From positions 1-39,845 of IMG/VR virus record IMGVR_UViG_3300028361_000059: DNA of 39,845 nt. One strand, 5' to 3'. Below are positions 2,845 through 35,149 of this stretch, piece after piece (position 1 is the stretch's first letter; every line of letters begins with the position of its first letter). Below the pieces are notes generated by a model. It searched no databases and was not told the origin of the DNA. It worked only from the letters and a program-made list of their open reading frames with translations. This stretch comes from a virus. A program made the translations under genes and the position numbers.

Positions 2845-3015
2845 TTAATACCCACTCCAACCTTCAAACAAAAAGGCTCTAGTCGCAAAATTATCTCGCG
2901 CTTGAGATTTCTCCGACCATTCCTTGGCCGAGTTATTAATTATTCCATGATTACCATCAAACACAATAAAATTGTGTCCGTCGGTAGCATTCATGTTGTT
3001 AATAATATTGTTCAT
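2845..3015 (-). CDS. Small protein of unknown function (56 aa)
   Basis: ATG at 3015 with AGGA ribosome binding site 6 nt upstream. The product begins MNNIINNMNATDGHNFIVFD and ends RAFLFEGWSGY; it is soluble and rich in Asn and aromatic residues. It forms a complete transcription unit: a sigma70 promoter (3036-3064) and a late promoter (3090-3097) in front, an intrinsic terminator behind. Such a set-up for one tiny gene makes it very likely real and expressed throughout infection. No family recognised. The frame on the other strand is a shadow. Confidence 0.75.
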   Translation of the reverse strand: MNNIINNMNATDGHNFIVFDGNHGIINNSAKEWSEKSQARDNFATRAFLFEGWSGY

Positions 3016-3035
3016 AAGTTTCCTAAGTTTTGTTC

Positions 3036-3064
3036 ATTAAATCATATTAAATTTGTTCAGTCAA
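3036..3064 (-). promoter_or_regulatory. Sigma70-type promoter (TTGACT-N17-TTTAAT)
   Basis: On the minus strand -35 TTGACT and -10 TTTAAT are separated by 17 nt, giving a start near 3029, about 14 nt before the 56-aa gene. Confidence 0.6.
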
Positions 3065-3089
3065 GTGTTTTGTTCACATTGACACGTTC

Positions 3090-3097
3090 TATTTATA
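3090..3097 (-). promoter_or_regulatory. T4-type late promoter TATAAATA
   Basis: Perfect TATAAATA on the minus strand, about 75 nt before the 56-aa gene and just upstream of its sigma70 promoter, so the gene could be transcribed both early and late. Confidence 0.6.
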
Positions 3098-3133
3098 GCT
3101 TACATGAACTTTAAGATCATGTCAAGCAAAAGT

Positions 3134-3220
3134 TGGAGCGGGTGACAGGATTCGAACCTGCGGAACCTATTCGCCTCTAGCTTGGAAGGCTAGTGCTCTG
3201 ACCAACTGAGCTACACCCGC
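3134..3220 (-). tRNA. tRNA-Gly (anticodon TCC) with hairpin in variable loop
   Basis: 87 nt on the minus strand. Acceptor GCGGGTG/CACCCGC with discriminator U and encoded CCA, D stem GCTC/GAGC, anticodon stem CTAGC/GCTAG with loop CTTCCAA, T stem GCAGG/CCTGT with TTCGAAT loop. G1-C72, U73 and C35-C36 fit bacterial GlyRS identity. The variable region is 15 nt: a normal AGGC...C interrupted by GAA-TAGG-TTC, a 3-bp hairpin. Gly tRNAs normally have a 4-5 nt variable loop. A strong sigma70 promoter ends a few bases upstream. Confidence 0.9.
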
Positions 3221-3229
3221 ATTTGTAGT

Positions 3230-3258
3230 ACTATACATCGTTATTTAGTTCTTGTCAA
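3230..3258 (-). promoter_or_regulatory. Strong sigma70 promoter for tRNA-Gly
   Basis: Minus strand TTGACA (3258-3253), 17-nt spacer, TATAGT (3235-3230). The predicted start is near 3224, just before the tRNA-Gly 5' end at 3220. Confidence 0.8.
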
Positions 3259-3390
3259 TCTTTTTGGAATTATTTTTCGCATTCTGATTGTAAACTGTTC
3301 AAAGTAATAGCTTTTATATATTCCCCAATTTCTCAAAACATCATATAGGGACGCAATAATTACTAATTCATGTGGACAAAAATGTATCAT
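3241..3390 (-). CDS. Doubtful small frame (49 aa)
   Basis: ATG at 3390 to TAA at 3241; the product begins MIHFCPHELVIIASLYDVLR and ends in a basic tail. The ATG lies about 7 nt past the -10 box of the promoter at 3397-3426, so the transcript would be nearly leaderless with no ribosome binding site. It may be leader sequence for the tRNA unit rather than a gene. Confidence 0.25.
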   Translation of the reverse strand: MIHFCPHELVIIASLYDVLRNWGIYKSYYFEQFTIRMRKIIPKRLTRTK

Positions 3391-3396
3391 GTGGTA

Positions 3397-3426
3397 ATTA
3401 TAGTACCTTTCATAATCTCTTGTCAA
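3397..3426 (-). promoter_or_regulatory. Consensus sigma70 promoter (TTGACA-N18-TATAAT)
   Basis: Both hexamers are perfect on the minus strand, 18 nt apart. It heads the leftward early region (tRNAs, small genes, Acb2-like gene). Confidence 0.8.
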
Positions 3427-3449
3427 TATCTATTAGTTTCTTTCCAAGC

Positions 3450-3457
3450 AATAAATA
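3450..3457 (+). promoter_or_regulatory. T4-type late promoter (AATAAATA)
   Basis: 7/8 match to TATAAATA; expected start near 3463, 23 nt before the ATG of the metalloprotease gene at 3486. Confidence 0.55.
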
Positions 3458-3485
3458 CATGCACTCCAACTCAACTAGGATTATC

Positions 3486-5450
3486 ATGCACTCTTATATT
3501 GGTTACGTAACAGAACTTTCGGGCAGTCATTATGATTGTATGTTTGAAACATATGATGACATACAATCTTGGTTATATAATCAACATGAAATAGAGGAAG
3601 AGCGTATACCACTTGATACGTTGGTTCAAGTTGATGGGGAAATAGTTGATGGGGAGATTGTCGTTTCTGACTGGCGAGTATATGTTGCCTCTGAAAGAGT
3701 CCCAGACGATGAAGAGCCAAAGCATTACCATCTAGCCGTATTTGCGGTTGTGCGAGAGCGCGACCGTAATAATTTAGACCGCCTTATCGGTGCCAAACTA
3801 TTCGCGGATGAACGCGCAGCCAAAACTCAAGCGTTTTGGAAAAACATATTCAAAGGTGATAGGATAGTTGATTGTAGGGGATTCGTATTAATTACTGATG
3901 AACATACCCAGCCCCCAGCTTTTTGTAGGGAATCTGTTGCTGAATTTAAAGTAACCAACCAAGAATATATTGACTCTGGGTGGGAATTTAATTACTACCA
4001 CCTAGAAGGTGGTTTTAATCCCGGCTTCAATGGCCACGGTGGCGGTAATAAGTCGGTAACATATGGTGGCGCACCAATGCGAACAACTATACATGAGACC
4101 GGTCACACTGCTCCCGGAAGTAATGTTTGGTTACTTCCACACAACGGTAAATTTTTACCAAATGGGCGGCTGTCGGAGTATGGTGGAGATAGTTGTATGG
4201 GAAGAAAATATACCATTCTCACAGCGAGAGAGTTACATCAATTACAGTTTCTAGAAGATACCTACATCATGAGAAATCCGGACCAAGGAGAATTCTTCTT
4301 GGCTTCTGCCAATTTACGCCACTTCAGTGTTTGTGATCGCGAGCATCAAGCAATAAGATTTGATGTGAATAATGCCAACAATGATTCTCTAATAGATTTT
4401 GGCAATTATTGGGTATCTGTACAAAGCCACGCAGGGCCATATGCATCAACACGGGACTACCAGAAAGTCAACATCCATGTGTTTGGTCGGCTGAAAAGCA
4501 CTAATGAAATGAAATATGTGATGTTAGCCGAATTGGCAAAAGGTGAATCATACACCATAAACGGTAACGTCATCAAGGTCGAAGACTTTTCTGCCAATGG
4601 TACCGCACGAGTCAGTGTAAATGGCACACAACCAATTGCAGAATTCCCTGATCCATTTGAGCAAATTAAACAGGGTGCTCCACTGTCGTCGGAACTATCT
4701 GGTCTTTGGATGAATGAAGAAATGGATGGTCAAGGATTCTTGCTCAATATTGATGGAGAACAATCGTTTGGTGGGTGGTACACGTTTGATGATAGGGGCC
4801 ATCAGCGTTGGTATGTTATGGAAACCGATGAAGTTGGAGATGATTATATAATCTTTAATGTCTATTGGACAGAGGGTGGCACGGTAGAAGCCCCTAACAC
4901 CGCAACGCTGAATCAACAGGGACGAGTATTGTATACGTTCCCCTCCGATCATACGGCACAGATGATCTGGGATATGGATGATCTTGGTAGAGGTGAACAA
5001 GATTTAATTAAGTTTACTCCAACAACTAGTGGTGTAGAGTCCGGTTGGTGGTATAACCCTTCTAGGAATAAAGAGGGAATTCTCACCCATGTACATGAGA
5101 TTATGATTGAGAATGAAATCCGAAATGAGATTGTGGGATTCTTTTATACCTATGGACCAGAACTAAGTCGATGGGACGCTGATACAACCCAAAGGTGGTA
5201 TATGGTGCAGGGTCTCCAGAATGAAAATGGTGTGTTCGAATGTGATATATATTTAGCAAATGGTACCCATTGGCTTTCTTACCAAAGTGCTAATATAGAT
5301 ATTGTGGGTCGCGGAACTATTCAATCTATTGGAAATGAATTAATGTTAGATTTTGATATTGAGGCCATTGAATATGAGACCTATCCTAGAGATAGCGATA
5401 TTAATGATCCTGCTAGAACAGTGAGCCATAGGGTTTCTAGACTACTATAA
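3486..5450 (+). CDS. M11 (gametolysin)-like zinc metalloprotease with repeated C-terminal beta domains
   Basis: 654 aa from the ATG at 3486 (TAGGA ribosome binding site 6 nt upstream, late promoter at 3450). The frame is open further upstream, but that part would precede the promoter start. At about residues 200-270 there is TTIHETGHTAPG (HExxH zinc site), then EYGGDSCMG, which fits the spacing of a Met-turn, then a helix TARELHQLQFL; this order fits peptidase family M11. The C-terminal third has two copies of a beta-rich unit with the pattern SGLWMN...GQGF...GGWYTF...QRWYVM and SGWWYN...KEGIL...FFYTYG...QRWYMV. No signal peptide is seen. The late promoter suggests a virion-associated enzyme, perhaps acting on host surface protein, or a lysis-stage protease. 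Protease class is fairly sure; role is inferred. Confidence 0.7.
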   Translation: MHSYIGYVTELSGSHYDCMFETYDDIQSWLYNQHEIEEERIPLDTLVQVDGEIVDGEIVVSDWRVYVASERVPDDEEPKHYHLAVFAVVRERDRNNLDRLIGAKLFADERAAKTQAFWKNIFKGDRIVDCRGFVLITDEHTQPPAFCRESVAEFKVTNQEYIDSGWEFNYYHLEGGFNPGFNGHGGGNKSVTYGGAPMRTTIHETGHTAPGSNVWLLPHNGKFLPNGRLSEYGGDSCMGRKYTILTARELHQLQFLEDTYIMRNPDQGEFFLASANLRHFSVCDREHQAIRFDVNNANNDSLIDFGNYWVSVQSHAGPYASTRDYQKVNIHVFGRLKSTNEMKYVMLAELAKGESYTINGNVIKVEDFSANGTARVSVNGTQPIAEFPDPFEQIKQGAPLSSELSGLWMNEEMDGQGFLLNIDGEQSFGGWYTFDDRGHQRWYVMETDEVGDDYIIFNVYWTEGGTVEAPNTATLNQQGRVLYTFPSDHTAQMIWDMDDLGRGEQDLIKFTPTTSGVESGWWYNPSRNKEGILTHVHEIMIENEIRNEIVGFFYTYGPELSRWDADTTQRWYMVQGLQNENGVFECDIYLANGTHWLSYQSANIDIVGRGTIQSIGNELMLDFDIEAIEYETYPRDSDINDPARTVSHRVSRLL

Positions 5451-5469
5451 ACCATCTCGCAGGAGGAAT

Positions 5470-5489
5470 CCCCCATCTTTAGGTGGGGG
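5470..5489. terminator. GC-rich hairpin between convergent genes
   Basis: CCCCCATC-TTTA-GGTGGGGG, an 8-bp stem with one wobble, sits between the stops at 5450 and 5494. The U-tract is poor on both strands, so it may act as a transcript 3' end or stability element more than as a strong terminator. Confidence 0.5.
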
Positions 5490-5493
5490 GGTG

Positions 5494-6315
5494 TCAAATG
5501 TTTTCTTTTTCATGATTGTCTACAACAATTGCAGACACTTTGGAAATAATATCTTTTGGGTCCATTGCATACCAGCCAGAACAACTAAAAGAGTTCAATT
5601 CTACTATTTTTGGGCCATTCTCGGTTGTTGCTATGTCAATGATAAACAAATCGTCTGGTACCCATGCACAAGTGTCCAATATGTCTTCGACTAACTGGGT
5701 AGATTCCACATTAACCTTGGTATCTTCTTGGTGTTTTCCCCCCACCTGATATCTGGAACTACCTAAAATCTCGCGATTTCCTATTACAAATCTAGCCTCG
5801 TCTAAGATTTTTTTGGGTGTAGAGATAAGAATCATAGAGTCTAATCCAACACCATAGAGTTTAATGATAGCATCTATTTCTCTAGTAATATTATCCATAG
5901 TCCATACGTTTCCGGTGAATTCTTTTCCACCCCTATTAGGTCTAAAGAATAGTTTGTCCATTCCCATAAGCCTAAAGTAGTATTCGTGATCACCTATTAG
6001 GTTGGCGAGAGTAACATACATATGGTCGGAATTTAAAAATAATTTATCATCCACTTCAAGCTGAGACATGTATACATTGCAGTTATACTTAAGATCGTCA
6101 TAATAGCACCCATAGAAGCCCCGCAAGTGGGAAACCGCATTAATTGTAGAATAGGTCACGACCGGTTCATCTTTTGTGAATGGGACGGTTATATTTTGTA
6201 CCATAAATGGAATGTAGTCAAACTCAAAGAACTCTATACCCAACTCATTAAAGGCTTCTACAGGTATTCTGGAATCCTCAAATATATATTTGTCAACAAC
6301 CCACTTAGCTTTCAT
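5494..6315 (-). CDS. ATP-grasp (R2K-type) domain protein
   Basis: 273 aa. The pattern fits the phage/bacterial R2K group of ATP-grasp proteins (DUF4343-like): an N-terminal half without strong motifs, then KEFTGNVW, LISTPKKILDEARFVIGNREILGSSRYQVGGK, and near the end DLFIIDIATTENGPKIVELNSFSCSGWY, where the Asp...Glu-x-Asn pair would bind Mg-ATP. ATP-grasp enzymes join a carboxylate to an amine through an acyl phosphate; the substrate is not known. The start overlaps the stop of the peroxiredoxin gene by 11 nt, so the two are probably translated together. Confidence 0.75.
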   Translation of the reverse strand: MKAKWVVDKYIFEDSRIPVEAFNELGIEFFEFDYIPFMVQNITVPFTKDEPVVTYSTINAVSHLRGFYGCYYDDLKYNCNVYMSQLEVDDKLFLNSDHMYVTLANLIGDHEYYFRLMGMDKLFFRPNRGGKEFTGNVWTMDNITREIDAIIKLYGVGLDSMILISTPKKILDEARFVIGNREILGSSRYQVGGKHQEDTKVNVESTQLVEDILDTCAWVPDDLFIIDIATTENGPKIVELNSFSCSGWYAMDPKDIISKVSAIVVDNHEKENI

Positions 6316-6844
6316 TGATCAGTTCTCCTTGGAGATATTCTAACATGGTGTTAGCATCAGAAACCTCAAATGGGTCTCCTTCAAATTCATCCATACGCAT
6401 TGTTGGCCAATAATTCTCAACAAATATAGCGTCAATATAACCATTGTCAACAACTGCGCTATATCTCCATGATCTATCACCAAGACCTGTGTTATTCTTA
6501 GTACACAGCATACCCATTGCTCTGGTGAATTCGCCATTTCCGTCTGCAACCATTTCAACATTACTAATATCCAAACTGTCAAACCATGCAGACATAGTAA
6601 AGTGATCATTGACACTGATACAGTATACTTCGTCAATGGCAGTGTCTATAATTTGGTCGTATAACTGGTCATACTCTGGTAGATGCCTCGAAGAGCAGGT
6701 TGGGGTGAAAGCTCCGGGAAGTGAGAAAATAACAACTCTCTTGTTATCAAATAGTTCACCAGAAAATACTGGCTGGGTTTTACCATCTTCATCGCGGGTG
6801 AATACTCTGGCACCCAGCGGTACTGATTTAGTTGTGTTGATCAT
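6305..6844 (-). CDS. Peroxiredoxin, Prx5 type
   Basis: 179 aa, full length for the family. SLPGAFTPTCS carries the peroxidatic Cys50 and the Pro/Thr of the PxxxTxxC motif. ISVNDHFTMSAW, MVADGNGEFTRAMGM and GLGDRSWRYSAVVDNG follow in the order seen in Prx5/AhpE-like enzymes. These reduce hydrogen peroxide and organic peroxides in the cytoplasm with thiols from glutathione, glutaredoxin or thioredoxin; no fused glutaredoxin is present. The gene overlaps both neighbours (17 nt upstream, 11 nt downstream) in a tight operon with the ATP-grasp gene. Peroxiredoxin is uncommon in phages and may protect the infected cell from oxidative stress. Confidence 0.93.
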   Translation of the reverse strand: MINTTKSVPLGARVFTRDEDGKTQPVFSGELFDNKRVVIFSLPGAFTPTCSSRHLPEYDQLYDQIIDTAIDEVYCISVNDHFTMSAWFDSLDISNVEMVADGNGEFTRAMGMLCTKNNTGLGDRSWRYSAVVDNGYIDAIFVENYWPTMRMDEFEGDPFEVSDANTMLEYLQGELINES

Positions 6845-7136
6845 TTAGTCGTTTCCTAGTAGTTAAATCTATAATTTCGGCGCTCTCTTTGTTCACTGCG
6901 CCATTAGATTCTTTAATACTAACGGATTCGACGGGCTTTGTCAATACTGGGTTCATTCTATTTTTGGACAAATTCTTCACAAAGCCGTTGTATTCATTTA
7001 CAAACTGAATAGTTGTAGTTTCATCTAACCCCTGCATTATTGACAGAAAGTACGGCTCCAATACTGGATATAGGTTGGCAATGTCTGTTCGGCTCAAAGA
7101 TAGTTTCTTGCCCCCAAATTTAATAAGATATTCCAT
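6828..7136 (-). CDS. Hypothetical protein (102 aa)
   Basis: ATG at 7136 with AGGAT upstream. Starts MEYLIKFGGKKLSLSRTDIA, then a helical middle and a polar, low-complexity C-terminus ending RKRLNDQHN. It overlaps the peroxiredoxin start by 17 nt, so it belongs to the same operon. No motif recognised. The 70 bp before it hold an AT-rich stretch but no late-promoter box. Confidence 0.75.
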   Translation of the reverse strand: MEYLIKFGGKKLSLSRTDIANLYPVLEPYFLSIMQGLDETTTIQFVNEYNGFVKNLSKNRMNPVLTKPVESVSIKESNGAVNKESAEIIDLTTRKRLNDQHN

Positions 7137-7206
7137 TTTTGATTTTATCCTTTATATCTATCTTGTAACATTCGTAAGCTCTTAATTTGTATATATTTTT
7201 TAGTGA

Positions 7207-7710
7207 TCAGCGTGTACTCGCTTTTGCTAACAGTTCCCAAAAAAGTTCGGGGTCAGTGCTTTTATGGATGTATACACCCTTCTCATCTCGTACCCAAAGT
7301 GCTCGCTGGCCATGTGATCTATTATCAATATCCAAGTGTACCATGGGTTGAGGCTGCATAGAATTAACATTAGTGTCTAAGTATACACCAATCCCTCTCC
7401 AATGTAAATTCTCAACAGCACAAAGCCAAAAATCCATTACATTAACTGATGGGAATACGTCTACGGCCATACCAAGTCGTCCGTCACCAATGTAGTGGCG
7501 ACTGGTTCTAGAACCACTACGCCTAACTAGTCCTTCTGGGACTCGGCTGGGAAATACAGCCTTTCCGAAATTTCTTCTGGTGTTGTTTAATTCATATATT
7601 ACTTCGGCTTTGACAAACTTCAAGTCTTCTGGTACTGGCCATTCTTCTGGTGTGAAGAAAGACTGATGATTACGTGCTATTAGATATTCATATGCATTTC
7701 GGTATATCAC
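7207..7710 (-). CDS. M15-like peptidase, endolysin candidate
   Basis: 167 aa, GTG start at 7710. SRTSRHYIGDGRLGMAVDVF and, 40 residues later, PMVHLDID supply a His-Asp-His set (H72, D84, H125) as in zinc-binding M15-type peptidases, which cut peptide cross-links in peptidoglycan. The first His and the Asp are further apart than in the classic SxHxxGxAxD motif, but the SRHY...GRL...A.DVF form occurs in a phage group related to M15. There is no signal peptide, so a holin would be needed; a holin-like gene is at 23504. The ribosome binding site AAAGGA lies in the loop, and the start codon in the stem, of a hairpin (7709-7734) that overlaps a late promoter (7734-7741). This matches the control of T4 lysozyme and supports a lysis role. 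Confidence 0.6.
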   Translation of the reverse strand: MIYRNAYEYLIARNHQSFFTPEEWPVPEDLKFVKAEVIYELNNTRRNFGKAVFPSRVPEGLVRRSGSRTSRHYIGDGRLGMAVDVFPSVNVMDFWLCAVENLHWRGIGVYLDTNVNSMQPQPMVHLDIDNRSHGQRALWVRDEKGVYIHKSTDPELFWELLAKASTR

Positions 7711-7734
7711 GGGAGAATCCTTTGACTCTCCCGT
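7709..7734 (-). promoter_or_regulatory. Start-codon-masking hairpin before the endolysin candidate
   Basis: Minus strand ACGGGAGA (7734-7727), 10-nt loop GTCAAAGGAT with the ribosome binding site, TCTCCCGT (7716-7709), a perfect 8-bp stem. The last two bases of the 3' arm are the G and T of the GTG start codon. Transcripts that come from upstream would form it; transcripts begun at about 7728 would lack most of the 5' arm. Confidence 0.75.
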
Positions 7735-7741
7735 ATTTATT
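7734..7741 (-). promoter_or_regulatory. T4-type late promoter (AATAAATA) overlapping the hairpin
   Basis: 7/8 match to TATAAATA on the minus strand. With T4 geometry the start is near 7728, giving an 18-nt leader that keeps AAAGGA but loses the hairpin's 5' arm. It overlaps the stop codon of the DUF1289 gene. Confidence 0.65.
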
Positions 7742-7922
7742 AATCAAACATTAAAGATATTCTTTCTTCACATTTGATATTAACCTGTTCCCTCTCCAAC
7801 TCCGACATTGAACTCCATTCAGCTATTTCAGACAATGTTCTGGAACATCCAGAACATATCTTAGTTGTCGAGTCAATAACACACACTTGTATACAAGGTG
7901 ATTCTGAACTTAAATATCGCAT
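7740..7922 (-). CDS. DUF1289 family protein
   Basis: 60 aa from the ATG at 7922, which lies inside the end of nrdJ (13-nt overlap). A TTG at 7940 is a longer but less likely start. SPCIQVCVID...ICSGCSRTLSEIAEW is the DUF1289 signature with four Cys (CxxxC...CxxC), probably a small metal or iron-sulphur binding protein. The family is common in proteobacteria, so this may be a gene taken from such a host. Coupling to nrdJ suggests a link to nucleotide or redox metabolism, but no function is known. Confidence 0.85.
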   Translation of the reverse strand: MRYLSSESPCIQVCVIDSTTKICSGCSRTLSEIAEWSSMSELEREQVNIKCEERISLMFD

Positions 7923-10213
7923 CCCTTTTGTCCCGCACAAGCTTGTGAAGCCAGAGTATCTGCATCTACGTAGTCATGATCAACTTCGATAACGTTAGAC
8001 CAATCTACGTCTTTATACTCTCTATGAAGATCGCACCACGTTTTCCAAAGAGAAACATGCTTCAAACAGTAAGTTGTCTTCCTGACATCCCCATCAAAGT
8101 AGCGATCAGCAAACTGTTCCACTCTTCGTATCCAGTCCAACTTGTCAAACCACTTAGTAAAGTCCATCAGACTTCTGTAGTATTCGGAGAGTGCTCCATT
8201 AGTAGGAGTTTTTGGATATTCTGGTAGATACTTTGTTTCAGTAAGGTCTTCGCCCTTATCTAGTGCTGTGTCACACGCTCTCCAGAGGTTGTCCTTAAAC
8301 GCATGTAATCCGTCTACAATAAGACCAGAGGCAAATACCGAAGCATCCCCATATTCTTTTATTAGTTCAGTTGGGGTCAATACTGTAGAAAATGGTGCTT
8401 GTGCATAATCCAAATCCCCTGAAGCTGGTAATAGTGATACGCCCGTAAAGTATTCTCTATTATCGTATATGAAGTCACACACTTCATCCCACTCATCATC
8501 CCTAACAGTAATTGTGTTAGAAACGTTGTGTGTGATTTCCGGATGTAGTGAACGCTCAGGTACATTACCAGCAAGAACCCAATGTTTTTGTGCCTTCTTC
8601 ACTGTTTCCAGTAATTTTACAGCATCTACCTGATTCTTGGTAATAGCGCCCGGTGGAACCTCACATAGAAACGATATAACTTCATCCGTATTGTTTGCAC
8701 TCCAAACAGATTCCTCGGTTGCCATTGGATTCTCCGCTTTAAAGTGTTGTAGAGGAAATTCTTGCTTGTTCGCTTGTACTCTTCGTATGTAACGCCGTGC
8801 GTGGTGTGGGTGAATTCCAGATGCAGTCTTTAATACACAGCTAGTAGACCCTGCTGGCTTAGAGCATGTTAGTCTTGCCGCTGGATTAATGTTTATCATC
8901 TTGGCAATAGTTTCATTCACTGCCTTGATTTCTGCTGCACCCTTTTCTAAAATGCTTTCGTTGAACAGGATATCAGGATTATCCATCCAGCCCGTAATAG
9001 AGCAGCCTAGTAAAGCTTCATGTTTAACAATCTCTTCGGTAGTTTCTCCTAAGTATGGGAATTCATTATACCCAGCTTGTAGTGTTCCAATGATTGCAGA
9101 AGCTCTACACGCTTGTAGGAAATTTTCTTCAGTGTTGCACCACTTACCATTTATCTCGGTCAGGTTACAAAAGTTTACACCGCTCTCGCCATTGGGTAAA
9201 ACGGGCCAAAATCCGATCTCAACGCAGGGGTTGGTTGTAGATGCATAGTCGTCGTTACAGAAATAGAAACCGGGTTCACCAGATTGTCTAATGCTCTCGA
9301 AAATTTTCTTAAAGTCTTCATAGCCGGTTTTATCTCGTTGAAGAACTACTGAGTTATTACTACGACCTCTTTGTGGGTTGGTAACAAACCAGTCTCCAGT
9401 TTTAGCGGTCATCATATCTTGGTCATCTGGAGAAAACAGACATATGGTAGCTGACCGCCGCAATCCACCGGAGATTACAAAGTCAGAAGAGTGCATTAAT
9501 ATATCATAGACTACAATAGGCTTAAGTGCAACTTTGGTTGAGTTCGTTTCAGTGAATTGTGCTTCTAATAGCCTTCCTATTTTTTCTAATCCTTTTCTCA
9601 ACGGGTCTGGGCCGGGTGCCTTAAATTGTCCAGCAATGAGAGCACCTTTTGGTCTGATCTTCGAGAAGTCAAAATTTACAATCTTTCCATGGTATTCTGG
9701 GAATCTCCCACCATCTTCAAAATATGATGAAAGTAGAACACCTACTGAGTCAGCCCAACCTTCACAAGTGTCTGGTATTACGTAGGTCTTTGTTTCGGCA
9801 TTTGATTTTCTATTAACAATTTTTGGGAGTTTTTCGATGTGGTGTTTTTGAACAGTAAATCCAACTCCACAACCTGCTAACAATAACCACACTACTTGTT
9901 GGAATGAAAACGGCTTGTCGATAAGTAAAGAACTACAGTTGTATATTCTTTCGTTTCTCTTCAAAATAGGGTCTCCACCATATTGTAAAGCTCTCTGCGC
10001 TCCCAATACTCGTTTCTTTCTAACCTGTTTTTCGGCAAACTTTAGTTCTTCTTCAAGTTCTGGGTTTTGTGCCAATTCGTCTTTGTATTTCTTCCTATGC
10101 ATAATGAACACTCTAGACACGGCTTCATCCCATGTTTCTCTTCGTTGTTCTTCTGGTAGGTATTGTGCGTAGCGTGAGTAAAACGTGTAATCAGATAGTG
10201 CTTTTAATGACAT
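7910..10213 (-). CDS. nrdJ: Ribonucleotide reductase, class II (adenosylcobalamin-dependent)
   Basis: 767 aa, the usual length of the monomeric class II enzyme. It makes deoxyribonucleotides for phage DNA synthesis using B12 as radical source. Visible active-site parts are C93 (YNCSS) and the later SCVLKTASGIHPHHARR for the redox Cys pair, N328-P-C330-V-E332 for the thiyl radical site, and the C-terminal CAGQKGC pair that re-reduces the active site. There is no small subunit nearby, as expected. It shares its end with the DUF1289 gene. The 90-bp region upstream is too short for a cobalamin riboswitch. Host B12, or uptake of it, would be needed. Confidence 0.95.
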   Translation of the reverse strand: MSLKALSDYTFYSRYAQYLPEEQRRETWDEAVSRVFIMHRKKYKDELAQNPELEEELKFAEKQVRKKRVLGAQRALQYGGDPILKRNERIYNCSSLLIDKPFSFQQVVWLLLAGCGVGFTVQKHHIEKLPKIVNRKSNAETKTYVIPDTCEGWADSVGVLLSSYFEDGGRFPEYHGKIVNFDFSKIRPKGALIAGQFKAPGPDPLRKGLEKIGRLLEAQFTETNSTKVALKPIVVYDILMHSSDFVISGGLRRSATICLFSPDDQDMMTAKTGDWFVTNPQRGRSNNSVVLQRDKTGYEDFKKIFESIRQSGEPGFYFCNDDYASTTNPCVEIGFWPVLPNGESGVNFCNLTEINGKWCNTEENFLQACRASAIIGTLQAGYNEFPYLGETTEEIVKHEALLGCSITGWMDNPDILFNESILEKGAAEIKAVNETIAKMININPAARLTCSKPAGSTSCVLKTASGIHPHHARRYIRRVQANKQEFPLQHFKAENPMATEESVWSANNTDEVISFLCEVPPGAITKNQVDAVKLLETVKKAQKHWVLAGNVPERSLHPEITHNVSNTITVRDDEWDEVCDFIYDNREYFTGVSLLPASGDLDYAQAPFSTVLTPTELIKEYGDASVFASGLIVDGLHAFKDNLWRACDTALDKGEDLTETKYLPEYPKTPTNGALSEYYRSLMDFTKWFDKLDWIRRVEQFADRYFDGDVRKTTYCLKHVSLWKTWCDLHREYKDVDWSNVIEVDHDYVDADTLASQACAGQKGCDI

Positions 10214-10303
10214 GTAATTTTCCTTAAGTTATAGTAGGTGAACATTATTTAGCTTTGCCCGATTGTCGAACAAATACTCTTTCACTATCTTAGGGTTATC
10301 AGT

Positions 10304-10846
10304 TCATTTTTGCAAGAGATAAAACAACTCTTCGTAGAACGGATGCTTTTCCGCGCTTATGGCATAGTAATATGGCATGCCATAAAATATAATTTCTTTG
10401 TTGGATTGCAGCGCTTGTTTTAATGTGCGCTCACCAGATGTATAAGCGTATTCAATTGCATCTTCTACGATGGCCATGGCATCATTTTGTGAGACATCCA
10501 GTTTGATCAGCCTTTCGTATGATTCTTTATACTCTTCATGGTCCGTCACTCTTGGGTTGAACAAAAATGAGAATCCATTTTTTGGGAAAATATAATATGA
10601 AACCGCACCTTCTACAGTAGAGTATGGGCCATTTGTGATTACCGACCTGACATCAATTCCTTCATACTCATCCTTTAATGCATCACCCATCACTCGCATA
10701 AAGCCCGTGGTGTTCTTCTTATGGCGAACTTTAACCCGCTTAACATAACGTCCATCGGGTTTTAACGCTCGCACCGCTGGGTAGCCCCCCGACAGTTCTA
10801 AGAACTGGTCACACTCTACTTTTAATTTTTTAAAACTATCTTTCAT
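10304..10846 (-). CDS. Hypothetical protein (180 aa)
   Basis: Best start is the ATG at 10846 with an AGGG ribosome binding site 7 nt upstream; a GTG at 10873 is an alternative. The N-terminal half is Lys/Arg-rich (RYVKRVKVRHKKNTTGFMR), the middle aromatic (VSYYIFPKNGFSFLFNP), the C-terminus helical. No family recognised. It is divergent from the late gene at 10894. Confidence 0.7.
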   Translation of the reverse strand: MKDSFKKLKVECDQFLELSGGYPAVRALKPDGRYVKRVKVRHKKNTTGFMRVMGDALKDEYEGIDVRSVITNGPYSTVEGAVSYYIFPKNGFSFLFNPRVTDHEEYKESYERLIKLDVSQNDAMAIVEDAIEYAYTSGERTLKQALQSNKEIIFYGMPYYYAISAEKHPFYEELFYLLQK

Positions 10847-10855
10847 TTTTTGCCC

Positions 10856-10863
10856 TATAAATA
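10856..10863 (+). promoter_or_regulatory. T4-type late promoter TATAAATA
   Basis: Perfect box; expected start near 10869, 25 nt before the ATG at 10894. Confidence 0.75.
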
Positions 10864-10893
10864 ACCCTGCCACTTTGATCCAATTATACCAAC

Positions 10894-11556
10894 ATGAGCG
10901 AATTAATAGAAGAACTAGAAAAAGAGGTTAGGAACCAAATTATTTATGTGATTGGTGGCGGTATGTCTTTTAATCCAAAGGCTGATTACGTTAAAAACAT
11001 ACCAAAAGAGCGAACCATATGTCTCAACTCGGCATTAAGTGACTTTGATGAATGTTTAGCTTGCATGTTTATGGACTCCAGTTGGTACACTAATAATAAA
11101 AAGCTGTTATCTGAGGGTAGACAGAAATATGCAATACGAGTTAACTTAGATAAAAGGCGATTAAGTCCCCAAGTAAATGACAATGTGATATATCTTAGGA
11201 ATGCTAATATTTCAAAGTGTTCTTTTGAACCCAACTATCGATTGAAACCCTATGATGTATCTGGAAACAATATCGGAGTGTGTGCTATAGATTTGCTAGA
11301 ACAACTGGGAGCCAAGACAATATACCTATTGGGGTTTGATTGTTCTTCCAATGATGATCAAAAATCGCATTATCATGAAAAATATAATAGGGTCGTAAAA
11401 CAAAAAACATATGATGATAAAATGTTGCCCTGTTTTGAAAACCTTCGATCCCACTTAGAAAAGCGGAAATCACAATTCAAGGTTATAAATCTTTCACCGG
11501 TAACTAATATAAAATCTATTCCGCGAAAAAGTTTGAAAAATTTTGACTTCCCATGA
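10894..11556 (+). CDS. DUF115/MptE-like, sialyltransferase-fold protein
   Basis: 220 aa. IIYVIGGGMSFN at the N-terminus, then CLNSALSDFD, and GNNIGVCAIDLLEQLGAKTIYLLGFDCSSND followed by H-Y-H, fit the DUF115/MptE-like group, whose fold resembles GT-B sialyltransferases. Related phage genes are common in tail-fibre regions. The late promoter and position just before virion genes suggest that it modifies sugars on the virion or makes a nucleotide-activated group. The enzyme activity is inferred from the fold pattern only. Confidence 0.55.
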   Translation: MSELIEELEKEVRNQIIYVIGGGMSFNPKADYVKNIPKERTICLNSALSDFDECLACMFMDSSWYTNNKKLLSEGRQKYAIRVNLDKRRLSPQVNDNVIYLRNANISKCSFEPNYRLKPYDVSGNNIGVCAIDLLEQLGAKTIYLLGFDCSSNDDQKSHYHEKYNRVVKQKTYDDKMLPCFENLRSHLEKRKSQFKVINLSPVTNIKSIPRKSLKNFDFP

Positions 11557-11585
11557 TTTTGAAATAACCGCTAGAGATCAACAAA

Positions 11586-11593
11586 TATAAATA
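11586..11593 (+). promoter_or_regulatory. T4-type late promoter TATAAATA
   Basis: Perfect box; expected start near 11599, 17 nt before the ATG at 11616. Confidence 0.75.
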
Positions 11594-11615
11594 GATAAAA
11601 GGTTCGAATTCAAAA

Positions 11616-13187
11616 ATGGCGACAATAACATACAAGTGTGATACATGTAAGCGGGACGTAGAGCTTCTAGAAAATTCTATGGGGATGACTACGTTTGGTT
11701 CATGTGTAATCACTCAAGACTGTAGGGGTAAGTTATACAAAACCTCTAGAAGTGCATATAACATCCGGGAATCCTTCTTGGAAGCGGACCCCACTGGTAC
11801 AATAGACAATTTTTCACCAAGGAAAATCTTTTTTAATTACGTCCAAGAGATACGTTCGGATAAATGGGTCGTCAATCATCGATTAAATGCTACCCCAGTT
11901 GTTAAGGTGTTCACTGAAACTAATGATGGGACTACCCTATTACCGATGGAGAATGATCAGTTTACTGTGACCTATACTTCCCCGGATAGTCTAGAAATAG
12001 TTTTCATGGACTCCTTTACTGGTCAAGTACATTTAATATCCAGAAGTATATCGGAAGATTCTATAGAGACTATATTACCCGAAGAAGGAATGCTTCAAGT
12101 ATCATATAATGATTCTTTGGCCTTTGGAGTTATTGCCCAGTTTAATGGAATAAGTTCTCCACCCCCAATTTTAACAAATGGTACTATTAGGTTGGACATA
12201 GTCCTAGAAGAACCAAATGAGGAACCAATTTTCTGTGTGGAAACCTTTACGGGCCTAGAAGATGGTACGTCTCCGTGGAACGATTTTAGAGCAATTCTTT
12301 TTAGAAGGCGAAGAAACTTCAATATAAAAACCAAGAGTATATCAGAGTTCAAACTCATAAAAGATCGGTATGACTCATTGAGCGATATTCCCCAACTCAC
12401 TAGGCTTAAGTTCGTAAGAATAGACCTCGGTGATGGGGTCTGGAGAGACATAAAATCAAAGCAAGTGTTAATGATGTTAGCATCTTCTCCATATCTCAAA
12501 GCGGACAAGAATTTAGAAGAAATTGTAGACATTGGTGAACTAAACAGAAAAACTGTAGATTCACAATTCGTTTTCATTAATGGGACACTATTTACTGACC
12601 CTAAAAATTCTGAAGACGTATATCCGAGAATTGAAAAAGATGAAATTGTTGCACTACCACCTACACCAACACCTACACCAACAATTAGTGTAACACCATC
12701 GATTACACCCACATCATCACCAACTCCGACACCAACTCCGACACCATCGGTTGCAGGAATATGTTGGGTCGGGGACACTGGGGGTGACTGGAGTCCAGTA
12801 TTTGCCGAGACAAATGCATATTTTAATGGTACATGTTTTATTTTAGATAACGAGTGGGGTAGTGGGCTGACTGTGGCCAGCCTCGAATACACTGGTGCGG
12901 GTGTTTCCCCAACGAATGGTATACGTTTTACACTGCTATTACAGGGAGAATCACCTACACTTGACGTAGGTATTGAAATAACATCCGAGGCTGCACCTAT
13001 ACCCATAACTGAAACTGTTACCTTGAGTAACGGGGTGACATTCTCCTATGAGTTGGACGAAAACTCTGGAATGTTTGATGGTATTTCTTCTATAGAGCCT
13101 GCCATTATTACGTTGATACTGTTGAATAGTGGTAGCTATGATTCGCTTATTATATGTGACATAGAAACTCGAACCTCGGACTGTTGA
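11616..13187 (+). CDS. Virion or tail-fibre-like protein with N-terminal zinc ribbon and Pro-Thr linker
   Basis: 523 aa. Residues 1-45 form a Cys-rich unit (YKCDTCKRDVEL... SCVITQDCRGKLY) that looks like a zinc ribbon. Residues about 60-345 are beta-rich with a segment (WVVNHRLNATPVVKVF) of the kind seen in phage fibre and baseplate proteins. A linker of Pro-Thr-Ser repeats (about 348-380) leads to a C-terminal beta domain that starts ICWVGDTGGDW. Such PT linkers give flexible extended spacers in fibres. It heads a run of rightward late genes (11616-15302). Host-binding role inferred from architecture. Confidence 0.6.
   Translation: MATITYKCDTCKRDVELLENSMGMTTFGSCVITQDCRGKLYKTSRSAYNIRESFLEADPTGTIDNFSPRKIFFNYVQEIRSDKWVVNHRLNATPVVKVFTETNDGTTLLPMENDQFTVTYTSPDSLEIVFMDSFTGQVHLISRSISEDSIETILPEEGMLQVSYNDSLAFGVIAQFNGISSPPPILTNGTIRLDIVLEEPNEEPIFCVETFTGLEDGTSPWNDFRAILFRRRRNFNIKTKSISEFKLIKDRYDSLSDIPQLTRLKFVRIDLGDGVWRDIKSKQVLMMLASSPYLKADKNLEEIVDIGELNRKTVDSQFVFINGTLFTDPKNSEDVYPRIEKDEIVALPPTPTPTPTISVTPSITPTSSPTPTPTPTPSVAGICWVGDTGGDWSPVFAETNAYFNGTCFILDNEWGSGLTVASLEYTGAGVSPTNGIRFTLLLQGESPTLDVGIEITSEAAPIPITETVTLSNGVTFSYELDENSGMFDGISSIEPAIITLILLNSGSYDSLIICDIETRTSDC
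12655..12750 (+). repeat. Pro-Thr codon repeat tract
   Basis: Imperfect repeats of the types ACACCA and CCAACTCCGACA that encode the PTPTPT linker. Such tracts change length easily by slippage. Confidence 0.8.
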
Positions 13188-13224
13188 GTATGATAGTACG
13201 GGTAATATCCACAGTAGTAAGAAA

Positions 13225-13836
13225 GTGATTGATGTTCATATCATCAATACTGATAGGCCATACCGAAAACGGTGTGTAGACAGTCTTTCTGGTGAGCCGA
13301 TAAACCTGTTTGAGGCACCGTTTATTAAAGGTAGAATTGGGAAGGCCAGAGTGAACGGCATCAAGATGGGTACATCCGAGTTCGTGTCTTTTGTAGATGA
13401 TGATGATATCCTCGTACCGGGGGCCTTCACAAGAGCGTTGGACATACTTCAACAGGGGTTTTCTGCATACTATAGTAATCATTATGTAATGGATGTAGAT
13501 GGAAAAGTTTATGGTAGATGGTTTGACAAACCCGCTAAAGCTATTGGTTTTTCACAAGAAACCCAAATGCATCACATTGTAGTGTACCGAAGAGAACTAA
13601 TAGAACCAGTATTTGCTGCTACTGAACTAGCATTATATAAAGAACGAACCTTGTTCAATTTAGCATCAATATATCATGGTCGAGTGTTCGGTGATGATAG
13701 GATGGGACTATATTGGAGAGTTCATGAAGATTCGGCACACACTCAGGTAACAGCGGAAACCCAAGAGTGGAAAGATGAGGTTAAAAGATATAGAGATATG
13801 ATAATGTGTCCACCAACAGGAAATAATAATGAGTAA
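13225..13836 (+). CDS. Glycosyltransferase family 2-like protein
   Basis: 203 aa, GTG start at 13225. VHIINTDRPYRKRCVDSL at the N-terminus and GRIGKARVNGIKMGTSEFVSFVDDDD give the GT-A pattern, with DDDD as the metal/nucleotide-sugar (DxD) site and EFVSFVDDDDILVPGAF typical of family 2. The protein is short, so only the catalytic core is present. It sits between two virion-like genes and overlaps the next start by 8 nt, so it may glycosylate a fibre protein. Confidence 0.7.
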   Translation: MIDVHIINTDRPYRKRCVDSLSGEPINLFEAPFIKGRIGKARVNGIKMGTSEFVSFVDDDDILVPGAFTRALDILQQGFSAYYSNHYVMDVDGKVYGRWFDKPAKAIGFSQETQMHHIVVYRRELIEPVFAATELALYKERTLFNLASIYHGRVFGDDRMGLYWRVHEDSAHTQVTAETQEWKDEVKRYRDMIMCPPTGNNNE

Positions 13837-14782
13837 AGAGTTTCCACAAAAAAGTTTCATATCAACCAATTTATCCCCCAAAAATGTATATCTCGATGGA
13901 AATACCGTAATATCCTCCACAAACTTTTTTAGTGTGTTCGCTGACGGGCCTTCAAACTACTACTTCGATAATGAAGCTGGAGTAATACTAGATGGGGTTC
14001 CTGACGATGGTTGGGTAATACTATATGTCAACTCTTATACTGGCAAAATAGAGTCTGAAATGGCTGTAGTAGACCCAGTGGTTTATGTTTCCGAGTTTCC
14101 TAGTAGTCCAGTGGAAGGAGAAATATTCTACCATATTATTGATTCACATGGCTATAAGTATGTCAGAGAACAATGGTCTAAATTCATATACCTCCCATTT
14201 TGTGAAATTGTGGGTGGTGACATAAGACGAATATATTCTGGATACAGTCACGGTGAAAATTACTTAAATCAATCTATAGTTGCCGGTAACATTTTATTCG
14301 ATGAAAATCAGAAACCCTTATATGTCAGAGAGGGTAGAGGTATTAGATTTTTAACTGATGTTGATGAGTGGGCACTGTCGCTACAGAATGTCAGAAACTT
14401 AACTAGTGGTAACACGTTCACAACCAATATTGCTTCAACATCTATCACAAAATATTCTCTCTTAAAAAGAGACCCCAACTATGCCGTATCCATATGTTCA
14501 TCAATGGCAGATAGTCCGACTGTTTCTATAGCCCTCAATGATTGTGTAGTCGGAGAATTTTGTCCTATCCTCGAAAAGGGGTTTATTAAGGACGTTAATT
14601 GGAACTGGGTGGTTCAACCAAATACCAACCTATACTGTTCTAAAACTGGGACGCTGTCACTAGTGCCCGACTTTACGGGTGCATCAATACAGATCGTTGG
14701 ATATGTAGTAGATGTAGACACAATATTCTTTGACCCCCAAGATAAGATATACATAAATAACCTCGTATCATTGAATTCCTAA
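13829..14782 (+). CDS. Virion structural or fibre-like protein (317 aa)
   Basis: ATG overlaps the end of the glycosyltransferase gene. The product is rich in beta-type, Asn/Ser/Gly sequence (NVYLDGNTVISSTNFFSVF, DDGWVILYVNSYTGKIE) without membrane segments. The SYTGKIE/SFTGQVH element is shared with the 523-aa protein upstream. Location in a late run and composition suggest a baseplate, fibre or decoration protein. No family name can be given. Confidence 0.5.
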   Translation: MSKEFPQKSFISTNLSPKNVYLDGNTVISSTNFFSVFADGPSNYYFDNEAGVILDGVPDDGWVILYVNSYTGKIESEMAVVDPVVYVSEFPSSPVEGEIFYHIIDSHGYKYVREQWSKFIYLPFCEIVGGDIRRIYSGYSHGENYLNQSIVAGNILFDENQKPLYVREGRGIRFLTDVDEWALSLQNVRNLTSGNTFTTNIASTSITKYSLLKRDPNYAVSICSSMADSPTVSIALNDCVVGEFCPILEKGFIKDVNWNWVVQPNTNLYCSKTGTLSLVPDFTGASIQIVGYVVDVDTIFFDPQDKIYINNLVSLNS

Positions 14783-14783
14783 T

Positions 14784-15302
14784 ATGTTAATTAACGGAGA
14801 CCTCAAAGTGCTTGGGGAAACATTCCTCAAAATCGCTGAAGACGATTCTTATACATTCGATGCTGGTGATAAGGGTTTGTTTATTATACGTGATAACATT
14901 TTATTATACAATAATGGTGTTTCCCTAGACCAGTTTGCAATTGTTTCATTTAAATCAACTCTTGTTGAAAGTCTAGGATTTGTGCTTGATGACCTATCTA
15001 TTAACCCCTCAACTTTAAACACCCTGAGTGGAGTGTCCGAGATAGATGGAAACAGTTCTCTAGTGGATGTACTTGTTCAACTAGGAGCAAACATTCCGTC
15101 CAAGTTTACTTCAACCTATGCAAGTGATACTACGCATATCATTGAACACAATCTGGATAGCCAAAACATACACGTGACTATATTTAATGACAGTAATAAT
15201 GTAATAATTAATGACGCAACGGTTCAAGTCTTAGACTTGAACCGTTTGGCTGTTACGCTATCTTCGCCCCAACCTATAAGAGTGTTGGTAACCTCGTATT
15301 AA
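14784..15302 (+). CDS. Fibre-like virion protein (172 aa)
   Basis: Starts 2 nt after the previous stop. LINGDLKVLGETFLKIAED resembles the repeated beta elements of phage fibres. The C-terminal third (STYASDTTHIIEHNLDSQNIHVTIFND) resembles the short beta domain at fibre ends. Its TAA shares the palindrome TTAA with the stop of thyA on the other strand. Confidence 0.5.
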   Translation: MLINGDLKVLGETFLKIAEDDSYTFDAGDKGLFIIRDNILLYNNGVSLDQFAIVSFKSTLVESLGFVLDDLSINPSTLNTLSGVSEIDGNSSLVDVLVQLGANIPSKFTSTYASDTTHIIEHNLDSQNIHVTIFNDSNNVIINDATVQVLDLNRLAVTLSSPQPIRVLVTSY

Positions 15303-16294
15303 ACACTAAAGGGAAATTTTATTGATGCTTGTGGATCATATTCTGATATAATAAAAGATTCTCTAGTTGCTTTATCACAGAAGTCGCCTAAACTCTCATA
15401 TACTGGTACTTCAATTTTAGGTGACACACCGGGCTTACGTTTCATTTGGTCCCTGAAGAGTTCAAGTTGGTCTTCATATATGTGAATGTTGTGCATTACA
15501 TGAGATAATTCTCCCACCTTCAACCCAACCATGTTAGCAATAATATGTAACATCAGTGCATAACTAGCAACATTATATGGTACACCCAGTGGATAATCAC
15601 ATGACCGTTGGATCATTGTCATATGTAGATAACCATCCAAGATCATGAAAATATATGTCATATGGCATGGTGGTAGAGCCATTTGATCTAACTCACCGGG
15701 GTTCCAGTGAGTGACAATAAGTCTTCTGTCATCTTCACCCTTCTTAAGTTTCGCTATACAGTTCTCTAATTGATCAACAATTTTTCCATCTGGACTTCTC
15801 CACTCACGAGCCTGTACCCCATAGATTCTCCCAAGATCATCTTCCCCACTTCGGTTGGGGTTGTTTAACCATTGTTCATTGTCATTAGCGTTGGCATCCC
15901 ATATTTTACAACCCTCTGTTCTGAATAGTTCTGCACTATCATAACCTTTCATAAACCCTATAAGTTCTGCCGCTATGGGTCTTATATCCATTTTCTTAGT
16001 CGTTAATAGTGGGAAGCGATCTGTGTCGGACATATCATACTTGGCCATCTGTGGTGTCAGTGTTAGACAACGTTTACCGGTTCTCTTATTGTATACCCAT
16101 TTACCCTCATCGAGTAGCATTTTACCAATGCGAATATATTCTTCATCAAAACTTTTCACATCTTTCCCTTTAATCATTTTTTGTACTTCTTGATAACATT
16201 CTCGGCCCACCAAGTAATAATCCATCTGAGACATGCACTCTTCATCTAGGTCGATGCAGTGTTCTTTTACTTTATCTAAGCATTTTTTATTCAT
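15299..16294 (-). CDS. thyA: Thymidylate synthase ThyA
   Basis: 331 aa. It makes dTMP from dUMP with methylene-tetrahydrofolate. FPLLTTKK near residue 94, WDANANDNE, LPPCHMTYIF with catalytic C210, and MIQRSCDYPLGVPYNVASYALM with N241 are all in order. The Asn at 241 indicates dUMP use and argues against a T4-type dCMP hydroxymethylase. An N-terminal extension of about 50 residues (MNKKCLDKVKEHCIDLDEEC...) precedes the usual start of the family. A consensus sigma70 promoter at 16331-16360 points to early expression. It lies alone between rightward late genes. Confidence 0.96.
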   Translation of the reverse strand: MNKKCLDKVKEHCIDLDEECMSQMDYYLVGRECYQEVQKMIKGKDVKSFDEEYIRIGKMLLDEGKWVYNKRTGKRCLTLTPQMAKYDMSDTDRFPLLTTKKMDIRPIAAELIGFMKGYDSAELFRTEGCKIWDANANDNEQWLNNPNRSGEDDLGRIYGVQAREWRSPDGKIVDQLENCIAKLKKGEDDRRLIVTHWNPGELDQMALPPCHMTYIFMILDGYLHMTMIQRSCDYPLGVPYNVASYALMLHIIANMVGLKVGELSHVMHNIHIYEDQLELFRDQMKRKPGVSPKIEVPVYESLGDFCDKATRESFIISEYDPQASIKFPFSV

Positions 16295-16330
16295 TGTTAA
16301 TCTCTTTGTAATATTTCGAAGTATTTAGTT

Positions 16331-16360
16331 ATTATAAAGCTATGTGGTGGTGGTTGTCAA
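16331..16360 (-). promoter_or_regulatory. Consensus sigma70 promoter for thyA
   Basis: Minus strand TTGACA (16360-16355), 18-nt spacer, TATAAT (16336-16331). The start is expected about 30 nt before the thyA ATG. Confidence 0.8.
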
Positions 16361-16400
16361 TTTCTGACTAAATGGGTTAAATCTATAATTTTATCCTGAC

Positions 16401-16408
16401 TATAAATA
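16401..16408 (+). promoter_or_regulatory. T4-type late promoter TATAAATA
   Basis: Perfect box; expected start near 16414, 21 nt before the ATG at 16435. Confidence 0.75.
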
Positions 16409-16434
16409 AAGCTAGACGAGTTGAAAACAATACA

Positions 16435-17643
16435 ATGAAAGAAAGTTTTAATGTTGAATTTAGTACCCGAGTAGTTTGTAGAGAAATTAATCCTGAAACT
16501 GGCGAAACAAACACGCTTCTAGATGATAGTAACGCCATTCATACTCAGAACATGGCAAGAACCATTGCGAAAGGGTTATCAAATGAGCCTAACTTCTTCA
16601 TACACCGAATAGCGTTTGGTAATGGTGGGAGTTTCACGGACGCTGGAGAAGTAACCATTTTAAACCCACCTAATGATGGTACTAGGGGTGATGGTTGGGA
16701 ATCCAGACTGTATAATGAGACATATTCTGAAATCATTGATAATGAAAATTTAAATTTTGGGACAGACCCCGGTTCATATGGACCAAACTCGACTCGTCCC
16801 GGAGGAGGTTCTGTACCCGGTGATGATCCTGCTGGTGGAGGAGTAACATCCTTAGAAGTGGGAAGAAAGTCGAACATCATTGCACGAATGTTTATTAATG
16901 TAAACGAACCTATCTCACAATTACCCGCAATAACTAATGATAGTGTCATTCAAGACAGTGAAAAGACTTTTGAATTTGATGAGCTAGGGTTTTATACTCT
17001 CGGTCTTCCAGCTAGTGCAACTCCAGCCGAGTCCATAGTTAATGTAGGAAACAGGAATTCTTTAGACTCGATACCTTCTACAATGTTTGGATTAGTTTTC
17101 AACTTGGATTATACCGTAAATGGTGTTGTACAGAGTGCTGAAATAACTATTCCCGCTTCAGGTTCAGGTTCGTCCGGTGAAGTTACCTATGGTGATCTTT
17201 GTGAAGGTATAAACACTGATGCTTGGGTTACTGGTGGTGATATTCCTAGTTCTGACCTGACTGTTCTTATAACTGATCAAGAAGGTGGTTCTACATTCTC
17301 AACAATTTCTGGAGAGGAAACTTTTGGTAATTTATTGTTTAGAAGTGTAAATGTGGGAAATATGGCAACACTAGAGTTGGCCTGTGATTCCGTATCCGGT
17401 AGTGATCTATTATATGCCCTGACTAGTGATTGTTCCAATGTGGATACATCCGTCAACACGGGTGTGAACGCTGGAGCACAAAATGATGCTGCTGCGCCTG
17501 AGAACGAAAGAGAAAGATTGATAACTCATATAACATTTTCACCAATCCTCAAGAAGGCCAACAGAATTATTGAAATAGAATATACTTTGACTGTTAGTAC
17601 TTCACAGACACAGAGTACTTCAACCTCTTTCGAGTTTACTTAA
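16435..17643 (+). CDS. Virion structural protein (402 aa)
   Basis: The N-terminus (MKESFNVEFSTRVVCREINP) leads to IHTQNMARTIAKGLSNEPNFFIHRIAFGNGG, then a Gly/Pro-rich linker (PGGGSVPGDDPAGGG), a beta-rich middle and a Ser/Thr-rich C-terminus (TVSTSQTQSTSTSFEF). Late promoter and composition suggest a tail or baseplate component. No specific family recognised. It shares its stop palindrome TTAA with the convergent glycosyltransferase gene. Confidence 0.5.
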   Translation: MKESFNVEFSTRVVCREINPETGETNTLLDDSNAIHTQNMARTIAKGLSNEPNFFIHRIAFGNGGSFTDAGEVTILNPPNDGTRGDGWESRLYNETYSEIIDNENLNFGTDPGSYGPNSTRPGGGSVPGDDPAGGGVTSLEVGRKSNIIARMFINVNEPISQLPAITNDSVIQDSEKTFEFDELGFYTLGLPASATPAESIVNVGNRNSLDSIPSTMFGLVFNLDYTVNGVVQSAEITIPASGSGSSGEVTYGDLCEGINTDAWVTGGDIPSSDLTVLITDQEGGSTFSTISGEETFGNLLFRSVNVGNMATLELACDSVSGSDLLYALTSDCSNVDTSVNTGVNAGAQNDAAAPENERERLITHITFSPILKKANRIIEIEYTLTVSTSQTQSTSTSFEFT

Positions 17644-21605: not shown

Positions 21606-21613
21606 TATTTATT
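21606..21613 (-). promoter_or_regulatory. T4-type late promoter (AATAAATA)
   Basis: 7/8 match on the minus strand, directly downstream of the terminator at 21618-21649; start expected near 21600, 17 nt before the ATG. Confidence 0.6.
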
Positions 21614-21617
21614 TAGA

Positions 21618-21649
21618 TAAAAAAAGAGGGAGCGAAAGCTCCCTCTTTT
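21618..21649 (-). terminator. Intrinsic terminator
   Basis: GAGGGAGC-tetraloop-GCTCCCTC stem (8 bp), A-run on the left and T-run on the right, so a U-tract exists on both strands. It ends the leftward gene at 21674-22126 and insulates the late promoter behind it. Confidence 0.9.
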
Positions 21650-21673
21650 CTATCTTTTAATGTAAAAGACTAT

Positions 21674-23473: not shown

Positions 23474-23481
23474 AATAAATA
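23474..23481 (+). promoter_or_regulatory. T4-type late promoter (AATAAATA), rightward
   Basis: 7/8 match; expected start near 23487, 17 nt before the ATG of the membrane protein at 23504. It faces the leftward box at 23495-23502. Confidence 0.5.
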
Positions 23482-23494
23482 CTGTGACAAAGGC

Positions 23495-23502
23495 TATTTA
23501 TT
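23495..23502 (-). promoter_or_regulatory. T4-type late promoter (AATAAATA), leftward
   Basis: 7/8 match on the minus strand; expected start near 23489, 20 nt before the ATG of the INT_rpt protein at 23469. Confidence 0.45.
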
Positions 23503-35057: not shown

Positions 35058-35085
35058 CGTGGTGGATTTAATCTTGGTATGGTGT

Positions 35086-35124: not shown

Positions 35125-35149
35125 GTACTTATGTAACAGGGGGTAGTAC

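Follow-up and report, generated by a model that had tools for sequence, protein, structure and literature searches.

The locus under study in the window (the whole stretch of DNA that was analysed, 39,845 nucleotides) contained a predicted endolysin gene, two genes upstream of it on the same strand, and a leader with a late promoter box and a hairpin. The features were as follows:

7910..10213, minus strand: B12-type ribonucleotide reductase gene (nrdJ), without a late box upstream; the proposed source of read-through
7740..7940, minus strand: DUF1289 gene, upstream of the endolysin gene, with its stop codon at 7742-7740
7734..7741, minus strand: T4-type late promoter box AATAAATA, separated from the start codon by 23 nt
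7724..7735, minus strand: hairpin 5' arm UACGGGAGAGUC, which starts within the late box and holds the predicted late start (about 7729-7726)
7720..7723, minus strand: hairpin loop AAAG
7718..7723, minus strand: Shine-Dalgarno sequence AAAGGA, 7 nt before the GTG
7708..7719, minus strand: hairpin 3' arm GAUUCUCCCGUG, which holds the end of the Shine-Dalgarno sequence and the entire GTG start codon
7207..7710, minus strand: predicted M15-type (DD-peptidase/hedgehog fold) endolysin gene, GTG start at 7710, 167 aa

The source of the window appears to be a large T4-related phage. T4-type late promoters depend on gp55, gp33 and gp45; a gp45-like clamp was found at 25335-26075 (PHROG 223), and genes for gp55 and gp33 would for the most part be expected beyond the 39.8 kb of the window. 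The DNA polymerase ORF (26118-29765, 1215 aa) carried an apparent intein-like insertion, as judged from its sequence. Between nrdJ/DUF1289 and the endolysin gene there was no other late box and no terminator-like site, no early promoter was identified for nrdJ/DUF1289, and no terminator-like site was found on the minus strand in 3000-17000.

On the minus strand, the endolysin leader reads AATAAATACGGGAGAGTCAAAGGATTCTCCCGTG. The first-pass annotation had described a perfect 8-bp hairpin that paired the first two bases of the start codon and carried the Shine-Dalgarno sequence in its loop. Computed folding showed that the hairpin is present and stronger than this, with 12 pairs (7735-7724 with 7719-7708), two of them G-U, and a stability of -19.6 kcal/mol; the 8-bp stem is its perfect core. 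All three bases of the GTG were paired, and the Shine-Dalgarno sequence was split, with its last two bases in the stem and the remainder in the loop as described. None of 200 dinucleotide shuffles matched the stability of the hairpin. Among the 41 gene starts in the window, the endolysin start had the strongest structure (-19.1 vs a mean of -3.7, the next being -9.9) and was the sole one below -10 kcal/mol. By stability, the hairpin also belonged to a small top group among the 32-nt hairpin loci of the window, where about seven loci were similarly strong. The exact hairpin was not found in viral contigs, a blastn search of the leader against phages produced no match, and in Rfam the leader gave a match at chance level only. 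Elsewhere in the window, a near-perfect 13-bp inverted repeat was located at 15216-15247, within the 3'-terminal part of the 14784-15302 ORF and downstream of a convergent thymidylate synthase gene.

The DUF1289 stop codon lies 4 nt before the hairpin and 29 nt before the endolysin start. A hairpin so close behind a stop codon could belong to the 3' end of the nrdJ-DUF1289 message, as a terminator or mRNA stabiliser, and overlap the endolysin start by accident; equally stable hairpins in the window (at 21619, 38233 and 35094) resemble intrinsic terminators. These three, however, end in T-runs, whereas the GC stem of the endolysin hairpin runs on into GAUAUACC, and on neither strand did the terminator scan call this hairpin. 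The terminator reading was rejected since the T-run is missing. A 3'-end element of any kind would leave unexplained both the pairing of the whole start codon and a late box at the typical distance, and we regard it as quite improbable.

The late box that had been reported at 7734-7741 was confirmed as an exact AATAAATA (7741-7734). The total of WATAAATA sites in the window was near chance (14 vs 9.6 expected); 13 of the 14 stood 23-35 nt before a same-strand start codon, where random placement put 0.17 sites on average and never more than 4. Because of this positioning, AATAAATA at 7741-7734 is credible as a T4-type late box. The window thus held -10 boxes like TATAAATA shortly before late genes, as expected of T4-type late promoters, and ATAAATA has been proposed independently as a late promoter motif in the jumbo phages CBB and GAP32 (PMC5259590). 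At 23474-23502, two AATAAATA boxes diverge, facing each other (AATAAATA...TATTTATT). They serve the 22693 minus-strand gene and, on the plus strand (23504-23944), a gene for a 146-aa protein with two transmembrane segments; this protein (PHROG 10198, unknown function) has conserved counterparts in XacN1, RAS14 and Vibrio jumbo phages. Strong T-tailed hairpins (terminators) were also seen directly before late boxes at 21606-21655 and 35061-35125, the TATAAATA box at 35086-35093 overlapping the terminator T-tract.

Opening energy was defined as the computed cost of freeing the region from the Shine-Dalgarno sequence to the start codon, and the difference between the long and the post-box transcript was taken as the drop. 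Transcription from T4 late promoters starts about 5-7 nt from the box, and a box-to-start distance of 5-7 nt was assumed in the calculation. Opening of the endolysin leader cost 18.2 kcal/mol on the long transcript and 6.7, 5.3 and 5.0 kcal/mol on transcripts from 7728, 7727 and 7726, respectively. A predicted start at about 7729-7726 was therefore computed to lower opening to 5-7 kcal/mol, leaving a residual stem somewhat above that of T4 e. T4 gene e, treated by the same method, gave 15.7-16.4 kcal/mol for the long transcript, about 4-5 after the first late box and about 1-2 after the second, and the gene e geometry that the first-pass annotation had recognised in this leader was in this way reproduced quantitatively.

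An energy-drop scan of the whole T4 genome returned only e, I-TevII, 49 and I-TevI at 9 or more (drop 9.0-14.2), all other T4 genes having drops of 6.7 or less; the window endolysin had a drop of 12.4. T4 e, soc, 49 and I-TevI are listed as hairpin-controlled and I-TevII as having predicted structures (PMC3014915). The scan overlooks some real cases because T4 soc was not recovered (drop 1.4). A terminase large subunit gene on a 270-kb jumbo contig (L097:13769-13804) showed a AATAAATA box with an 11-bp hairpin immediately upstream of the ATG; this gene (L097:13802, drop 10.8) was not counted as a switch, since the stem lacks the Shine-Dalgarno sequence. A GC-rich inverted repeat that merely happened to overlap the start site would agree with the presence of about seven hairpin loci of similar strength in the window and with the lack of conservation in relatives described below. 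When the spacer was shuffled with box, Shine-Dalgarno sequence and start kept fixed, however, the observed drop from long to short transcript was attained in 1 of 3000 cases; the hairpin coincides with a positionally validated late box, and the same score picks only documented or predicted switch genes in T4. Chance is on these grounds highly improbable.

The endolysin leader is probably a timing switch of the T4 gene e type. Transcripts from the upstream nrdJ-DUF1289 genes would read into the endolysin gene, and the long transcript would fold the 12-bp hairpin, burying the start codon and part of the Shine-Dalgarno sequence and leaving the endolysin untranslated early. After replication begins, gp55-type late transcription from AATAAATA would start about 5-7 nt downstream, inside the 5' arm, and the resulting mRNA, without most of that arm, would be translatable. 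The late start site, the read-through and the lack of translation from the long transcript are inferred, as is the lytic activity of the endolysin. For the RNA part, the main rival is translational coupling to DUF1289, in which ribosomes ending at its stop codon would open the 5' arm, endolysin synthesis would accompany that of DUF1289 at every stage of infection and the late promoter would only add mRNA. At this stop codon a terminating ribosome could reach over most of the 5' arm, and ribosomes finishing DUF1289 so shortly before the hairpin might melt it. In T4, however, the nudE stop stands at almost the same distance from e (37 nt), and yet e is reported to be about 100-fold repressed (PMC3014915), which makes coupling an unlikely account of the locus.

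The window protein had no Pfam or PHROG match at the thresholds used, and a PDB sequence-profile search with 8 sequences also gave no match. A profile scan of viral contigs detected 36 loci with relatives. In 25 aligned sequences, S70, H72, D84, H125 and D127 were invariant, and H72, D84, H125 and D127 fitted the Zn ligand pattern H...D...HxD; judged from this alignment, the invariant residues are those of a zinc-peptidase pattern. Classical M15 proteins have a shorter H-to-D spacing than the window family. The AF2 model of the window protein (pLDDT 91.8) had the Zn DD-peptidase 1lbu as its closest solved structure (Z 8.4), hedgehog domains were the next matches, MepA and the endolysin Ply500 were also among the matches, and the viral matches in BFVD were M15A peptidases (E 3e-5). 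An earlier AF2 model from 2 sequences reached a pLDDT of 42, and its fold search was disregarded. The scores are modest but mutually consistent, and the modelled protein has the M15/DD-peptidase fold, in agreement with the first-pass description of an M15-like peptidase unrelated to T4 lysozyme.

The window protein is predicted to be an endolysin. A jumbo-phage relative matched the PHROG endolysin family at 3e-5, and in several smaller phages the relatives stood directly after a LydA-type holin gene and before transmembrane or lipoprotein genes. The lysis role, earlier deduced from the switch itself, is backed independently because relatives adjoin holin genes. The hairpin and late box may be real and yet the enzyme may not be the one that lyses the host, but, say, a replication-module or virion-associated peptidase. 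The gene adjoins ribonucleotide reductase genes in three jumbo-type contigs (the window, L001 and L046) with no lysis cassette, and the Vibrio phage VPMS1 record contains both a relative and a gene labelled lysozyme. The holin neighbours and the PHROG endolysin match of the relatives argue against such a role, and T4 gene e likewise lies outside any lysis cassette; a non-lysis enzyme is doubtful, with a low but appreciable probability.

The 34 relatives with a readable start had no late box within 60 nt and showed opening energies of 2-11. The first-pass annotation had proposed comparing the hairpin in related phages and had named its absence from relatives that keep the gene as a refutation of the switch; the hairpin was absent in 34 of 34, and hairpin plus late box were kept in none, two relatives from jumbo-type phages among them. 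The leader has no covariation support because no relative keeps hairpin or box. The jumbo-type phages L001 and L046 share with the window a homologous protein (63% and 50%, respectively) and the same neighbourhood next to ribonucleotide reductase genes, but have neither a late box nor a strong hairpin at the start. The upstream flank differs among relatives, being nrdA-nrdB in L001 and nrdJ-DUF1289 in the window. Gene e is kept without the hairpin in Aeh1, 44RR, 25, 31 and FelixO1 (PMC3014915), and because T4 gene e is equally patchy, demanding conservation in all relatives is too strict. No match to the window protein was found in the genome contigs searched. A scan of ribonucleotide reductase neighbours gave two relatives with an M15 gene in neither, and a scan of redoxin neighbours gave 30 loci with an M15 gene in none.

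M15 endolysins are known from the T4-like phages RB43 and RB49 (PMC8140593). A review mentions RB49 solely for its lack of gene e and leaves its M15 leader undiscussed (PMC3014915). The RB49 enzyme and the window protein had no detectable sequence homology (hhalign probability 0.1). The layout of the window leader was found on M15C endolysin genes as follows:

L103:5108-5170, minus strand: M15C endolysin leader of RB49 with a late-type box and a start-burying hairpin
L107, L190, L191, L192, L193 and L106, upstream of the endolysin ATG: M15C leaders with a late-type box and a start-burying hairpin

The late-type box stood 24-28 nt before the ATG in RB49 and Brandy, in Bragavirus SdyM_006, Pm5461 and SJ_PmiM, in the Straboviridae PSTCR6 and Mm5 (no genus given), and in Gualtarvirus PSTRCR_121. 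In all of these a hairpin covered the Shine-Dalgarno sequence and/or the ATG, its 5' arm coming immediately after the box. Opening in these leaders fell from 7.2-14.3 to 2.1-5.0 kcal/mol on transcripts that start after the box. Among the Bragavirus, PSTRCR_121 and Mm5 leaders, pairing was kept with differing stem sequences, as judged by eye. Slopekvirus and Pseudotevenvirus M15C leaders, which have a hairpin after a box-like site, were not counted, since the Shine-Dalgarno sequence is outside the stem. Other viral contigs supplied 43 non-redundant M15C leaders as a control, and none had such a late box. By itself, strong structure at the start of an endolysin gene is unspecific because 10 of these 43 box-less leaders opened at 9 or more, for other reasons; the signature is box plus hairpin, not hairpin alone. 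In the M15C endolysin genes of L113-L118, the start site was buried in very stable structure (opening about 18 kcal/mol) and no late box was present, which suggests another control. No report of M15 switch cases was found in the literature searched, and an earlier report may still exist.

The endolysin leader is best read as a further case of an already known switch, here on an enzyme unrelated to T4 lysozyme. The proposal that the switch arose here as a singular event did not stand, as several Straboviridae M15C endolysins share the architecture, and the evidence points to a switch that recurs on endolysins without homology to one another. On balance, we lean towards the view that a late promoter within a ribosome-binding-site hairpin tracks endolysin function and not protein family, and that it was assembled independently on at least three unrelated T4-superfamily endolysins (lysozyme e, the M15C EndoRB49-type and the M15A-like window enzyme). 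If true, such recurrent assembly would point to strong recurrent selection for a silent early endolysin mRNA. A textbook single-gene example would become a general, searchable design rule for T4-like phages, by which an endolysin of any family can be silenced on read-through mRNA and the late start cuts off the 5' arm of the hairpin. A simple energy-drop scan recovered most T4 examples and found new ones, endolysin timing in uncultured phages would become predictable and testable, and the signature of box plus hairpin can help to locate lysis genes of unknown family.

Among known systems, the endolysin leader resembles that of T4 gene e, also an endolysin gene, in which a hairpin buries the Shine-Dalgarno sequence and the start at similar opening energies, a late box lies just before the 5' arm and overlaps it, and an upstream stop codon (that of nudE) stands close before the hairpin. 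The T4 e enzyme, however, is a glycosidase unrelated to the M15 peptidase of the window, and its gene has two TATAAATA boxes, whereas the leader in the window has a single AATAAATA, a GTG start and a GC-rich 12-bp stem. T4 49 and I-TevI also use AATAAATA, the same box as the window endolysin, and its last bases likewise form the 5' arm of a start-burying hairpin, but both are nuclease genes and not lysis genes. The M15C genes of RB49 (Krischvirus), Bragavirus and Gualtarvirus share with the window an M15 peptidase endolysin, a late-type box and a hairpin over the Shine-Dalgarno sequence or start; unlike in the window, their ATG is paired in AT-rich stems, and their boxes include TCTAAATA and CATAAATA variants where the window has AATAAATA.
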